A stretch of DNA of 54,973 bases from the NCBI GenBank assembly GCA_024330215.1, contig JANDLU010000016.1:1-54973 (forward strand), written 5' to 3'. Below the pieces are notes generated by a model that was not told where the DNA came from, ran no database searches, and was given only the letters and a program-made list of their open reading frames with translations. Of the stretch, positions 23,255-27,925 are shown piece after piece; positions within the stretch are counted from its first letter, which is position 1; the number at the start of each line of letters is the position of its first letter. Both the position numbers and the translations under genes were made by a program. Source of the DNA: Candidatus Gaiellasilicea maunaloa (GTDB lineage: Bacteria > Actinomycetota > Thermoleophilia > Gaiellales > Gaiellaceae).

Positions 23255-25133
23255 TCGCGATCTCCTTCAGCGCATCCGGGTTTTCCAGGGTCGAGAGGTC
23301 GCCGGGATCCTTCCCGAGAGCGGTCGCCCGCACTGCCCGGCGGACGATCTTGGCGCTCCGGGTCTTTGGGAGCGCGCTGACGAAGAGAACGCGCTCGGGT
23401 GCGAACGCCTTCCCGAGCGCGGCCGCCACGACCGCCCTCACCGCGTCCGCCTCGGCCTCCGCACCCGGCTTGAGGGCACAGAAGAGCCACGCCACCTCGC
23501 CCTTGACCTCGTGTGGGATCCCGACTGCGGCCGCCTCCGCCACGCCGGGATGATCGAGCGCCGCGGACTCGAGCTCCGCCGGGCCGATTCGCTTGCCGGC
23601 GATGTTGAGGGTGTCGTCGGAACGGCCGTGCAGGCTCCAGTAGCCGTCCTCGTCGACCGAGGCCCAGTCGCCGTGCGTCCAGACGCCGGGGAACCTGCTC
23701 CAGTACGTCTCGAGATAGCGCGCGTCGTCACCCCAGATCCCACGCGTCATCCCCGGCCAAGCGCGCGTGCAGACGAGCTCGCCCACCTCGCCGCGCAGCG
23801 GCTCTCCCGCGGGCGAGTAGACGTCCATTGCCTGGCCGAGCGCCGGGAACCCGAGCGAGCAGGGCTTCGTCGGCGCCATCGGCGTGACCGAGAGGAAGCA
23901 GGCGCCCACCTCGGTCCCGCCGGAGATGTTGACGATCGGGATGCGACCGTTGCCGGCTGCGTGCTCGTCCAGCCAGTCGTACGGGCCGGCGTTCCACGGC
24001 TCGCCCGTCGTCGTGATCGCACGGAGGGAGCTCAGGTCGGCTGTCGGCTCGCCCTTCGGGATCAGAGCGCGAATCAGGGTTGGCGAGACACCCAGCATCG
24101 TCACCCGCTCTTCCTCGACGAGCCGCCAGAGCCGATCGTCGGGCCAGTCGGGCGCGCCCTCCATGTACACCACCGCCGCGCCGAGCGCACCCGTTCCGAC
24201 CACGGTCCACGGGCCCATGATCCAGCCCATGTCCGTCGCGAACAGGACCCGATCGCCCGCCTGGATGTCCGACTGGTAGGCGGCCTCGCGTGCGATCGAG
24301 AGCAGGAAGCCTCCGTGCACGTGCAGCGCTCCCTTCGGTCGCCCGGTCGTCCCGGAGGTGTACGCGAGCAGGAGCGGCTGCTCGGCCGCCACCTCGAGCG
24401 CGGGTAGAGATCCATCCCCGAGCGGCACGCTCCACGTCCGATCCTCGCGCCGCCACTCGGCGACGTACTCCACCGACGGCGCCTCGCGAAGCGCGTCCTC
24501 GATCGTCTCCCGCATCGGCGTGCGCTTGCCGCGGCGGTACGACCAGTCGGCGGTGATGACGACCTTCGCGCCGGAGTCCTGAAGCCGCTGCGCGACGGCG
24601 GTCGCGCCGAAACCGGAGAAGATCGGCACCTGGATCGCACCGAGATGCGCGCACGCGTACGAGGCGATTGCGGCCTCCGGGCACATTGGCAAATAGACGG
24701 CGATCCGGTCACCCGCCGCGACTCCTAGATCGGCAAGGCCCTGCGCGAGTTTCGCGACGTGGAGGGAGAGCTCCGCGAACGTCCATTCGTCGCGGGTGCG
24801 GTCCTCGCCGCAGAAGATCGCCGCGACAGCATCGGGTGTTCGCTCGGCCCACGCATGCACGCAGGCGGTTGCCACGTTCAGCCGCGCGCCCTCGAACCAG
24901 GTCGTCCACTCGATCCCGCGCGAGTCGTCCCGGACGCGCCGCCATGGCGACGCGAGCTGCAGCTCGAGATCGTCGACGACCGAGCGCCAGAAGCGATCCG
25001 GCTCCTCGACCGAGAGCCGGTGCAGCGCGGCGTAATCGGAGCAGCCGAGGGTCTGTGCGAGCCGGACGACGTTCGCGCGCTCGAGCTGTCCGGGGGAGGG
25101 CGTCCACGTAAACGTCGCGTCCCGGGCGGCCAC
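23244..25133 (-). CDS. AMP-dependent acyl-CoA synthetase (acetoacetyl-CoA/acetyl-CoA synthetase-like)
   Basis: A 629-residue ANL-superfamily ligase. Motifs: AYTSGTTGRPKG phosphate loop, NISGGTEVG, HGDWASVDEDGYWSLHGRSDD hinge (shown in part) and PKTRSAKIVRR at the C-terminus with the catalytic Lys. The N-terminal ACAS-like cap (FTWTPSPGQLERANV) supports GTG 25133 as the start, and GATGAT lies 6 nt before it. The carboxylate substrate is unclear. The end overlaps the putative true start of the SDR gene. Confidence 0.88.
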   Translation of the reverse strand: MAARDATFTWTPSPGQLERANVVRLAQTLGCSDYAALHRLSVEEPDRFWRSVVDDLELQLASPWRRVRDDSRGIEWTTWFEGARLNVATACVHAWAERTPDAVAAIFCGEDRTRDEWTFAELSLHVAKLAQGLADLGVAAGDRIAVYLPMCPEAAIASYACAHLGAIQVPIFSGFGATAVAQRLQDSGAKVVITADWSYRRGKRTPMRETIEDALREAPSVEYVAEWRREDRTWSVPLGDGSLPALEVAAEQPLLLAYTSGTTGRPKGALHVHGGFLLSIAREAAYQSDIQAGDRVLFATDMGWIMGPWTVVGTGALGAAVVYMEGAPDWPDDRLWRLVEEERVTMLGVSPTLIRALIPKGEPTADLSSLRAITTTGEPWNAGPYDWLDEHAAGNGRIPIVNISGGTEVGACFLSVTPMAPTKPCSLGFPALGQAMDVYSPAGEPLRGEVGELVCTRAWPGMTRGIWGDDARYLETYWSRFPGVWTHGDWASVDEDGYWSLHGRSDDTLNIAGKRIGPAELESAALDHPGVAEAAAVGIPHEVKGEVAWLFCALKPGAEAEADAVRAVVAAALGKAFAPERVLFVSALPKTRSAKIVRRAVRATALGKDPGDLSTLENPDALKEIANVV

Positions 25134-25507
25134 GCGGCGATCATCGCAGAGAGCTGCCGGACCGTGGCTCCTGGACCGTGGAACGTCCCCGGCTGCGGCT
25201 CCGGGGACGATCCTGTCGAGGCGCTGCCACTGGGCGACGCTCCGGCGGACGTGACTCTGCGGCTCAGTCACGGCCTTCGGGTTTGCGGCGGTCGCATCTC
25301 GGTGGCGCGCCCTTGCATCGCCTGGCGTCCGGCGAGCAAGTTGATCGCACTCTAGGAGCCATGTCCAAAAAAGTCAAGTGGCTCGGTCAAGTGATTTAGT
25401 GGTAGGCTCGCTTCACCCCGGTCCGGGTCCACGAGCGTCGCCGGAAGATCCCTGCAAAGGGGTACGCGCGTCGCTCCACTTCCCACTTGACTGAATCAAC
25501 CACCGCC
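25134..25507. other. Long intergenic region with hairpin and repeated TCAAGTG sites
   Basis: No convincing gene. It holds a GGACCGTGG direct repeat, a 9-bp stem (25184-25192 with 25201-25209, 8-nt loop), and two TCAAGTG direct repeats (25374-25380, 25387-25393). It also has TAGGCT (25403-25408) as a possible -10 and an inverted CACTTGA (25484-25490) near the regulator start. This implies a 5' leader of about 90 nt for the XRE-TPR gene. An open frame ending at 25355 has no recognisable similarity. Confidence 0.5.
25374..25408 (+). promoter_or_regulatory. Candidate promoter/operator of the XRE-TPR gene
   Basis: Tandem TCAAGTG sites 13 bp apart precede a TANNNT-type TAGGCT (25403-25408). A reverse copy CACTTGA is at 25484-25490. 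The 13-bp phasing is not a whole helical turn. These are the best visible sites for self-regulation by the HTH protein. Confidence 0.4.
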
Positions 25508-26854
25508 ATGAACGACGCCATCTCCACCCATCGCCTCACCGCCGCGCCGCCCACGTCCGGACGGCTCGGCGACCGGTTGCGCCTCCTGCGCGTCTCGGCA
25601 GGCCTGACCCAGACCGAGCTGGCCGGCGAGCGCTTCTCGAAGGAGTACGTCAGCCAGATCGAGCGCGGCAAGACGCGTCCGACCCAGGAGACCGTCGAGT
25701 GGCTCGCGCAGCGCCTCAACGTCGACCCCGCGTTTCTGGCCAGCGGCGTCTCCACCGACGAGCGCGGGCGGGTCGAGACGTTGCTTGCTCAGGGCGAGGC
25801 GCTGACGCACGCGCACCACTACAAGGACGCAATTGCCGCCTACGGCGATGTCCGGCGCGCGGTCTCGGCGACGAACTCGGCCGAGCTCGACGTTCGCGCT
25901 CGCTCCGGCGAGGCATGGGCCTGCATGCAGGACGGAGATCCGCGCCGAGGAATCGAGCTCCTGACCGAAGCGCGCGAGATCGCGGAGAGCCCCGCCTTCT
26001 CCGATCTCGATCGCGCCGAGCTCGTCTTCCGCCTCGGTGCGTGCAGATTCAAGCTTGCCAGCACCGGCACCGCGATCGCCCTCCTCGGGGAGGCGCTCAC
26101 GCTCGCGGAGCGCTCCGAGCTCCCATGCGACGTGCTCCGGGCCGACATCTTCCAGTGGCGCTCTCGCTGCCACCGCCGCCAGCGTGACTTCGAGGCCTCA
26201 CGCGAGGATGCCGAGCGGGCGCTCGAGTTGGCGCAGGCCGTCGGCGATCGCAGCATGACTGCGAACAGCTACTTCCAGGCGTCGCTCGTCGCCGAGCGCA
26301 CGGGGCACTGGATCCTCTCGCGCAGCTACGCCGAGCGTGCCAAGTCGCTCTATCAGGAGCTGAACGACGAGCGCAACGTCGGCCTGGTGCTGAACAACCT
26401 GGGCGGGCTGAACCTCCTGCTCGGCAACCCCCAGAAGGCGATCGAGCTGCTCAAGTCTGCTTTCGCCGTCGCCGTCGAGGTCGAATCGCAGAGCGACGCC
26501 GCCGTCGCGATGGGCGGGCTCGGCACGGTGCATCTCCAGCTCGGCGAGTGGGCAGAGGCGGAGAAGCACGCACGGCACGCGCTCGAGCTGCTCGAAGGGC
26601 GCGAGGACTATCTCGATCAGATCGGCAGCTCGCAGCTCGTCCTCGGCCGCTCGCTCATGGAGCGCGGCCGCCTCGACGACGCGGAGGTGTGCTTCCGGGC
26701 CGCCGACGCCGCGTACGAACAGCTTTCCTCCGTCAGCTATCGGGCGGGCGCGTGGGTGGCGCTCGGCGACCTGGCTGCTCGTCGTGGCGACGATCCGGAG
26801 GCCGCACGACTCTTCCGGAACGCCGCCGAGGCGCTTCAGGACATCCGCTTCTAG
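25508..26854 (+). CDS. XRE-HTH regulator with C-terminal TPR repeats (RRNPP-type architecture)
   Basis: A 448-residue protein. Residues about 18-75 form an XRE HTH (LGDRLRLLRVSAGLTQTELA, then FSKEYVSQIERGKTRPT). The rest is helical TPR repeats, several with the W/L-G-Y-A-F-A-P pattern, such as NVGLVLNNLGGLNLLLGNPQ and AVAMGGLGTVHLQLGEWAEA. HTH plus a TPR superhelix is the architecture of RRNPP peptide receptors (PlcR, Rgg, ComR), and also of other SARP- or XRE-type regulators. A 33-codon exported-peptide ORF follows 22 nt downstream, which favours peptide-sensing. ATG 25508 was preferred over TTG 25487. Confidence 0.85.
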   Translation: MNDAISTHRLTAAPPTSGRLGDRLRLLRVSAGLTQTELAGERFSKEYVSQIERGKTRPTQETVEWLAQRLNVDPAFLASGVSTDERGRVETLLAQGEALTHAHHYKDAIAAYGDVRRAVSATNSAELDVRARSGEAWACMQDGDPRRGIELLTEAREIAESPAFSDLDRAELVFRLGACRFKLASTGTAIALLGEALTLAERSELPCDVLRADIFQWRSRCHRRQRDFEASREDAERALELAQAVGDRSMTANSYFQASLVAERTGHWILSRSYAERAKSLYQELNDERNVGLVLNNLGGLNLLLGNPQKAIELLKSAFAVAVEVESQSDAAVAMGGLGTVHLQLGEWAEAEKHARHALELLEGREDYLDQIGSSQLVLGRSLMERGRLDDAEVCFRAADAAYEQLSSVSYRAGAWVALGDLAARRGDDPEAARLFRNAAEALQDIRF

Positions 26855-26861
26855 AACACGG

Positions 26862-26869
26862 AAAGGAGG
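26862..26869 (+). promoter_or_regulatory. Strong Shine-Dalgarno of the peptide ORF
   Basis: AAAGGAGG ends 7 nt before the ATG at 26877. It is the most complete Shine-Dalgarno I see in the window, where most genes appear leaderless or coupled, and it argues that the tiny ORF is translated. Confidence 0.7.
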
Positions 26870-26876
26870 CTCAAAG

Positions 26877-26978
26877 ATGAAGACGCGGCTACTCTCTCTG
26901 CTGCTCTCGGCTCCGGTGCTGCTCGCCGCCTGGAGCGGTTGGCTCGGCCCGATCCCCGGCTGGCACGAAGGCAACTAA
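26877..26978 (+). CDS. 33-residue putative secreted signalling peptide precursor
   Basis: ATG to TAA gives 33 residues: a charged start (MKTR), a hydrophobic core (LLSLLLSAPVLLAA) and a polar-aromatic tail WSGWLGPIPGWHEGN. This is a minimal Sec signal plus a short mature peptide, with possible cleavage after LAA. It lies 22 nt after the XRE-TPR stop, has a strong Shine-Dalgarno and no -10 box of its own, so it should be cotranscribed with the regulator. Size, order and composition match propeptides of RRNPP quorum-sensing systems. I know of no named homologue. A small membrane peptide is the alternative. Confidence 0.7.
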   Translation: MKTRLLSLLLSAPVLLAAWSGWLGPIPGWHEGN

Positions 26979-26992
26979 CGCGTAGGCGCGGC

Positions 26993-26998
26993 TACACT
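26993..26998 (+). promoter_or_regulatory. Candidate -10 box (TACACT) of the lipoprotein gene
   Basis: TACACT is followed by exactly 6 nt and the GTG at 27005. It lies 14 nt after the peptide ORF stop, so the lipoprotein has its own leaderless promoter. Confidence 0.5.
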
Positions 26999-27004
26999 CG
27001 CCGC

Positions 27005-27925
27005 GTGCCACGCACTGGCGCCCTCGCCTTCGCCCTCGTTCTCTTCCCGCTCTTCGCCGCCGGCTGCGGCGGCTCCTCCACCACCGAGGTAGTGGAGGAG
27101 CCCCCAGCCGGCTCGCTCGAGGCACTCTGGCGGAAGCCCGGAGAGGACGTGGCGATCGTTCCGGGAACTGCTGACTTCGCGCCCGGCCGCGTTCGTCTCT
27201 CCTTTCTCGTCGTCGACGGGCAGGGACAGGTGGTGACGCGGCCGACGGCACGGGTCTGGCTCGCCCGGGGCCTCGACCGAGAACCGTTCCTCGAGACAAC
27301 TGCGACGTCCGAGCCGATCGGGGTCGAGAGCTCGGAGGAGGAGGCGGGCGCGTCCCAGATCTTCGTCACCCGCCTCGAGATCCGGAAGCCCGGCAAGTAC
27401 TGGGTGCTCGCCGAGCCGGTCGGCGGCCGCAGGATCCAGGCGGTCGGGAACGTGGTCGTCGCGAAGGAGACCGTCGCGCCGGACGTGGGCGACCCTGCGA
27501 TCGCCTCGAGGACGCCGACGATCGCGAGTACGGGCGGCGACCTGGCCGCCCTGTCGACGCAGAAGCCGCCCGACCGCGAGCTGCTCCGCTCCTCGATCGC
27601 CGAGGCGCTCGCCGCGAAGGTCCCATTCGTCGTCGCGTTCGCGACCCCGCAGTTCTGCACGACTCGCACCTGCGGACCCATCGTCGACGTCGTCGGTGCC
27701 GTGCGCAGGAGGTTCGCAGACGCCGGGATCCGGTTCATCCACGTCGAGATCTACACCGACAACGATCCGGCGAAGGGCACGAACCGCTGGGTGAACGAGT
27801 GGAAGCTCCCCTCCGAGCCGTTCACGTTCCTCGTCGGCGCCGACGGGCTCGTCAAGGACCGGTTCGAAGGCACGTTCTCGGTGCGCGAGCTCACCGCCGC
27901 GGTCGAGCGCGAGCTCGTTCGCTAG
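27005..27925 (+). CDS. Lipoprotein with thioredoxin-like domain
   Basis: A 306-residue exported lipoprotein: signal VPRTGALAFALVLFPLFAAGC with lipobox FAAGC at the N-terminus, an Ig-like middle domain (VRLSFLVVDGQGQVV ... GKYWVLAEPVGG), and a C-terminal thioredoxin-like fold. The latter has a Cys pair in PQFCTTRTCGPIVDVV and a cis-Pro region LPSEPFTFLVG. The C-x4-C spacing differs from classical CxxC. It could serve in extracytoplasmic redox or metal handling. An 11-bp hairpin (27071-27081 with 27092-27102) lies just after the lipobox codons. It converges with the SDR gene, overlapping it by 4 nt. Confidence 0.8.
   Translation: MPRTGALAFALVLFPLFAAGCGGSSTTEVVEEPPAGSLEALWRKPGEDVAIVPGTADFAPGRVRLSFLVVDGQGQVVTRPTARVWLARGLDREPFLETTATSEPIGVESSEEEAGASQIFVTRLEIRKPGKYWVLAEPVGGRRIQAVGNVVVAKETVAPDVGDPAIASRTPTIASTGGDLAALSTQKPPDRELLRSSIAEALAAKVPFVVAFATPQFCTTRTCGPIVDVVGAVRRRFADAGIRFIHVEIYTDNDPAKGTNRWVNEWKLPSEPFTFLVGADGLVKDRFEGTFSVRELTAAVERELVR
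27071..27102. repeat. Perfect 11-bp inverted repeat inside the lipoprotein gene
   Basis: GGCTCCTCCAC and GTGGAGGAGCC flank a 10-nt loop, about 20 codons into the lipoprotein gene. In a leaderless mRNA this stable stem near the 5' end could affect translation or export. It may also be fortuitous coding for GSSTTEVVEEP. Confidence 0.4.

Follow-up and report, generated by a model that had tools for sequence, protein, structure and literature searches.

Peptide signals of the RRNPP type are described as a trait of Bacillota, and small molecules as typical of Actinomycetota (PMC10075063). The RRNPP(A) systems nearest by structure to the locus described here are NprR-NprX, PlcR-PapR, and Rap-Phr. 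They combine a tetratricopeptide repeat (TPR) receptor with a helix-turn-helix (HTH) domain, which Rap lacks, and an adjacent propeptide that begins with basic residues, continues with a hydrophobic segment, and carries the signal at its C-terminus. In the arbitrium system of SPbeta-group phages (AimR-AimP-AimX), an HTH-TPR receptor is encoded next to its propeptide, and an operator lies at the promoter from which a small ncRNA is made (PMC6458997). A 2016 review gave no report of quorum sensing for Thermoleophilia (PMC4748050), and we found no earlier report of RRNPP systems in Actinomycetota or Gaiellales in the open-access literature searched, subscription papers and preprints being outside the scope.

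We analysed a window of 54,973 nucleotides (the whole stretch of DNA under study) from a draft genome of 3.85 Mb. It contains what is likely an RRNPP-like receptor–propeptide signalling cassette of Actinomycetota with the receptor, peptide, and ncRNA anatomy of arbitrium; its export, re-import, peptide binding, and response to cell density are inferred. The cassette consists of a conserved gene pair with a selected ORF, a conserved and elsewhere repeated peptide tail, a conserved operator–promoter, a structured RNA, and a receptor whose fold is predicted by a model. It lies among metabolic genes in the window (AMP-binding, SDR, AIR-synthase-like). The features, in window coordinates, are as follows.

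25173..25343, minus strand: conserved structured ncRNA, from a covariance model, with a central hairpin and a 3' terminator-like hairpin (25185-25208)
25349..25377, minus strand: divergent sigma-70-type promoter of the ncRNA, TTGACT-N17-TAGAGT, from a promoter scan and conservation in relatives
25373-25380 and 25386-25393, strand not assigned: putative operator of two direct GTCAAGTG boxes with a period of 13, from sequence and conservation
25403-25408, plus strand: putative receptor promoter -10, TAGGCT (weak, by eye)
25411-25417, plus strand: degenerate third box CTTCACC in inverted orientation (weak, by eye)
25484-25491, plus strand: inverted site CACTTGAC, 16 nt before the receptor ATG
25508..26854, plus strand: XRE-TPR receptor/regulator of 448 aa (ATG at 25508, TAG at 26852-26854), from Pfam, AlphaFold2, and orthologues
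25565-25744, plus strand: receptor HTH, about residues 20-79
25754-26839, plus strand: receptor TPR helices, about residues 83-444
26862..26869, plus strand: Shine-Dalgarno AAAGGAGG of the propeptide ORF, 7 nt before its ATG at 26877, with an equivalent in orthologous loci
26877..26978, plus strand: propeptide ORF of 33 aa, MKTRLLSLLLSAPVLLAAWSGWLGPIPGWHEGN, conserved and under purifying selection
26958..26975, plus strand: candidate mature signal GWHEGN, the last six residues (exact ends undefined), from the alignment, the repeats, and a fused model

The cassette resembles the RRNPP(A) systems in its HTH and TPR receptor, in the build of its adjacent propeptide, and in the tandem signal repeats found in some species. 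It differs from them by its presence in Actinomycetota (Gaiellales), by the lack of any sequence match beyond generic HTH and TPR, by a tail motif [GS][WFM]x[DE]G, and by a divergent structured ncRNA; its Sec signal is also unconfirmed. It shares with arbitrium the HTH-TPR receptor, the adjacent propeptide, and the operator at an ncRNA promoter, binding at the Gaiellales operator being inferred. However, the Gaiellales ncRNA is divergent from the receptor, whereas that of arbitrium lies downstream of the peptide gene, and it outlives the cassette in genome G058 and perhaps in G038. Unlike arbitrium, the cassette belongs to the chromosome and is widely conserved within a single order; the loci read show no phage context. 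Carriage by a temperate phage with lysis–lysogeny control is thus an arbitrium trait that it does not share, given the metabolic neighbours and the conservation across most genera of the family. The resemblance to the NsdA family and other Streptomyces XRE-TPR regulators is a weak TPR similarity (36 bits for NCBIfam NF053720, far under the cut-off of 75).

Membership in RRNPP was judged by the five criteria that Bernard et al. set out in 2023 (PMC10075063). Four are met: a propeptide of 10-100 aa (33 aa), a receptor of 250-500 aa (448 aa), TPRs in the receptor, and adjacent genes (22 nt apart, with 99 of 107 loci paired). On the fifth, export by Sec or PptAB, most relatives show a basic start and a hydrophobic core, and a clear cleavage site is present only in some. 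It is likely that the cassette works like RRNPP systems and that it has the three parts of arbitrium, while formal membership rests on peptide binding, which is still inferred.

The receptor matches HTH_31 and several TPR families in Pfam (TPR_12 at 2.3e-28). Its AlphaFold2 model, made with 95 relatives in the alignment, has a pLDDT of 92.4 and consists of an HTH followed by about nine TPR hairpins in an all-helical superhelix; it contains no separate ligand domain in the TPR region. Among the matches compared, the top Foldseek TM-scores were those of NprR (5dbk, 0.62/0.76) and RapJ (4gyo, 0.61/0.75). VIA-align gave Z scores of 30.9 for a phage Rap, 30.4 for Rap 4gyo, 30.2 for NprR 5dbk, 23.3 for PlcR (3u3w), whose match spans HTH and TPR, and 22.8 for AimR (5zw6). 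Yet generic TPR chains score alike (31-32 for APC/C and APPBP2, similar for LGN), and the fold alone therefore does not settle the function of the receptor. The predicted likeness to NprR, Rap, and PlcR is met, yet it is necessary rather than sufficient for RRNPP identity. Sequence searches of the PDB were rejected as proof of RRNPP identity because they do not separate RRNPP from generic TPR proteins. PADLOC and PHROGs returned only generic HTH/TPR matches for the cassette. Conserved polar residues occur in the first helices of the repeats (R180, R218, Q257, N296, N297) and are possible groove residues, their facing not having been computed.

Orthologues of the receptor are present in 97 of 129 Gaiellales genomes, with 40-94% identity over most of their length, and the cassette is spread over most genera of the family. 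The closest named relatives are Gaiella sp., Gaiellaceae, and Thermoleophilia metagenome-assembled genomes, in agreement with a sequence-only reading of the window that had proposed a probable Thermoleophilia lineage. That reading had also claimed a regulator with the HTH and TPR layout of RRNPP receptors, which is borne out by Pfam, AlphaFold2, and the fold matches; a 33-codon ORF 22 nt downstream with its Shine-Dalgarno 7 nt before the ATG, which holds as read from the sequence; and tandem TCAAGTG sites with an inverted CACTTGA upstream of the regulator, which hold as well, the tandem boxes being conserved across loci. Class-level homologues of the receptor (about 32% identity, family f7) lack a propeptide ORF. 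Two of them (L214, L215) nevertheless have similar boxes upstream (CACTTGACC / TACTTGACT), and the f7 homologues with boxes may perhaps represent a peptide-free ancestor or relative of the circuit. In a phylum-wide sample of 296 genomes, strong matches were confined to these lineages. The cassette was also seen on contigs titled Burkholderiales (L178, JAICUZ010000045.1) and Acidobacteriota (L146, JAGWRZ010000060.1); these titles are more likely wrong bin names than signs of transfer.

The association of the small ORF with the receptor was counted in the 107 loci that could be read through the receptor stop codon, using fixed criteria (24-75 codons, a Shine-Dalgarno, a basic start, a hydrophobic core, and a start within about 75 nt). 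Such an ORF lies directly 3' of the receptor in 92 loci under the strict count and in 99 under the relaxed one. None of the 330 other genes called in these loci carries one under the same criteria, and a cruder control gave 1 in 987. In nearly all loci read, the small ORF comes right after the receptor, its Shine-Dalgarno is strong, its start is rich in K/R, and its core is hydrophobic; in most relatives it encodes 28-70 aa. In 15 close pairs, the pN/pS of the propeptide ranges from 0.22 to 0.55 (median 0.37), and its codons are therefore under purifying selection. The small ORF is thus real and more than a product of chance. Some second copies of the receptor lack it (L084, L090, L103, L108).

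In the alignment of the propeptides, the basic start and the end are conserved and the hydrophobic part between them varies; the end has a family tail motif, [GS][WFM]x[DE]G, with a single invariant glycine (G32). The conserved portion of the 15-residue tail is restricted to its last five or six residues, GWHEGN in the window, which are identical in the congener L003 even though the preceding residues differ. In one genus (L017-L019, L022), the tail is tandemly repeated (SMFDGG SAFDGG ...), and L029 has four copies of GM(H/Q)DGHG. Tandem pheromone repeats are known from RRNPP propeptides (PMC11343458). Only some relatives show an unambiguous signal-peptidase site of the classical kind (e.g., LAQA-K); in the window peptide, such a site is doubtful. 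Some propeptides have long linkers and AxA-like sites; the length of the tail and the linker vary, and the last residues are conserved. In L009 (G060:C14), the ORF has shrunk to MKARLILHRSWTDGH, with the hydrophobic core lost and the tail SWTDGH kept, possibly as a decaying or leaderless signal.

One alternative is that the product of the small ORF stays in the membrane as a small protein, where it would bind the receptor as an anchor or co-regulator; no peptide would then be released and no signal would pass between cells. In its favour, many orthologues have little beyond a basic start, a single hydrophobic stretch, and a short tail, and show no obvious cleavage site, and both the conserved pairing and the selection are compatible with it. 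Against it stand the tandem repeats of the tail in several species, the long linkers and AxA-like sites of some propeptides, the persistence of SWTDGH in L009 without a hydrophobic core, and the conservation of the last residues while tail length and linker vary. We consider this alternative unlikely and retain the reading of the ORF as a propeptide.

Ten genomes have two paralogous receptor–propeptide pairs, and the tails differ between the pairs. From genome to genome, each class of paralogues retains its own tail, for example GFSDGR in one and PDGMxDG in another. GFSDGR is the tail of the copy beside a UvrC-like region, and GF(S/F)SGG that of the copy beside an isocitrate-dehydrogenase-like region (these labels are our reading of the flanks, not a database result). 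Paralogue-specific tails are the expected appearance of receptor-specific signals, an inference that rests on sequence alone. A second alternative is that the cassette is a cell-autonomous, self-sensing export–import timer, or a sensor of the state of secretion or import, rather than a signal of density. It requires the same parts and is genetically indistinguishable from quorum sensing, and Opp-type binding proteins are numerous. The divergence of tails between paralogues and lineages is as expected for signalling specificity. We hold this alternative to be improbable, although no evidence here separates the two. The sequence-only reading had described a charged start, a hydrophobic core, and a 15-residue tail, which holds in part, only the last five or six residues of the tail being conserved. 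Those of its proposed comparative checks that could be run were favourable: the small ORF is kept beside the regulator in relatives, its pN/pS is well below 1, and a conserved signal-like part accompanies a class-specific tail. Its proposal of peptide quorum sensing is supported by the comparison, with export, re-import, and binding remaining inferred.

We also modelled the receptor fused to the propeptide, by reading the receptor stop as an amino acid in orthologues with an in-frame propeptide. This fusion is artificial and we do not claim that it exists in the cell. It was made on L003, whose receptor is 93-94% identical and whose tail, GWHEGN, is the same. Across the linker and the hydrophobic part, the mean pLDDT is 42, 50, 41, and 55; it rises to 81 in the last four residues. 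The free end of a chain normally has the lowest confidence. The raised value at the tail therefore suggests that it is placed; this leaves open, as a prediction of the model only, the possibility that the tail lies against the receptor in the L003 fusion, where the binding site was not located. These data also bear on a third alternative, in which what the receptor senses in its TPR groove is a metabolite or a protein, and the ORF that follows is merely co-transcribed and encodes a small protein of unrelated function. Some TPR regulators do respond to ligands other than peptides, and no such ORF accompanies the f7 homologues. This alternative is nevertheless very unlikely in view of the near-universal adjacency in two families, of tail classes that track the receptor class, and of the higher pLDDT that the tail reaches in the fusion. 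A non-peptide ligand domain in the TPR groove would have refuted the peptide reading, and the model shows no extra domain.

Upstream of the receptor, the tandem TCAAGTG boxes are conserved in more than 70 loci. On the minus strand, the conserved element reads TCACTTGAC-N5-ACTTGAC with a period of 13, and its inner box overlaps the -35 of a divergent promoter, TTGAC-N17/18-TATAGT, that is conserved in relatives. The window version of this promoter is the sole promoter-like site in 25100-27100. Of 61 Gaiellaceae genomes, 38 contain the composite operator–promoter pattern, each of them a single time and at the receptor; the reversed pattern, used as a control, gave 0 matches. We infer that the direct repeats are the operator of the receptor at the ncRNA promoter, for which there are no binding data. 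Many orthologous loci also show TANNNT just 3' of box 1 and an inverted ACTTGAC/ACTTCAC box (weak, by eye), and several have a TTGACT/TTCACT element at the position of CACTTGAC.

The divergent promoter is followed by a conserved RNA of about 170-185 nt, and most loci with the receptor–peptide pair have such an RNA back-to-back with the receptor gene. The sequence-only reading had missed that the TCAAGTG boxes overlap the promoter of this ncRNA, which is the most likely output of the cassette. In an alignment of 24 sequences, 12 of the 20 pairs show compensatory changes; the covariation score is 0.341 versus 0.162 in shuffles, with 0 of 500 shuffles as high, and it drops sharply when slid. The Infernal covariance model R1 matches 25173-25343 on the minus strand with 107 bits (E 1e-20). 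The window sequence is one of the 24 training sequences of R1; loci outside this set (L065, L031, L057) score 100-116 bits. A search of the source genome with R1 revealed no second real copy, and Rfam, searched at lax thresholds with the ncRNA and its neighbours, returned only chance-level matches and no family. We rejected the possibility that the RNA is an mRNA, as there is no conserved ORF inside. It is also unlikely to serve as the leader of a single gene: most loci have a terminator-like hairpin at its end, and the genes seen beyond it vary from lineage to lineage. In the window, this hairpin lacks a long T run, and a terminator scan found none. The loop letters GCCGCAG are common to the central and the terminator hairpins, and this repetition could possibly mark a binding site for a target RNA or protein.

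In the mechanism that we propose, the receptor would be a cytoplasmic HTH-TPR transcription regulator. The propeptide, with its basic start and hydrophobic export segment, would be exported and trimmed to a C-terminal signal of about five or six residues. The tail would then be re-imported by one of the Opp-type transporters of the genome, which has at least 12 SBP_bac_5 (Opp-type) loci, and would bind the TPR groove, shifting the binding of the receptor at the direct repeats. One state of the receptor would repress the ncRNA promoter, the ncRNA being the main output, and autoregulation of the receptor–peptide operon may be added. Repression is inferred, and is thought the most likely because the inner box covers a consensus-like -35; activation is not excluded, and apo-AimR acts as an activator (PMC6458997). 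A bolder reading, whose chances we put a little below even, takes the locus to be a quorum-sensing system of Actinomycetota that is carried on the chromosome and conserved by vertical descent. In it, an imported peptide would control an HTH-TPR receptor with only one DNA site of high quality in the genome, at the promoter of a structured regulatory RNA; this would be an arbitrium-like switch outside Bacillota and phages. If this is true, intracellular peptide communication would extend to a second phylum, and the peptides would make up a defined code, some species having several tails per genome, with one ncRNA as a testable output. About three-quarters of the genomes sampled from this order, a major soil group that is mostly uncultured, carry the cassette.

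Natural losses of the cassette separate the ncRNA from its putative regulator. Genome G058, which is 97% complete, has kept the ncRNA (85.6 bits; L260, G058:C5), and both the receptor and the peptide are missing. The boxes have decayed to CACCCGAC and GACTTGCC, with the operator/-35 degenerated, and therefore the receptor and the operator vanish together while the RNA stays. The ncRNA is directly followed there by the gene of a thioredoxin-like lipoprotein, which in the window sits downstream of the cassette. In G038 (L261, G038:C153), the cassette is missing and the match to the ncRNA is weak (32.5 bits). Since the ncRNA persists without the cassette in G058, and perhaps in G038, it is likely to have a job of its own, independent of the receptor–peptide pair. 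In the window, the 3' end of the cassette is adjoined by a lipoprotein-like gene (27007-27925) with GCGG near its start, for which there was no Pfam match from 27020 on. The same lipoprotein-like gene also adjoins the empty site in G058 and G038.
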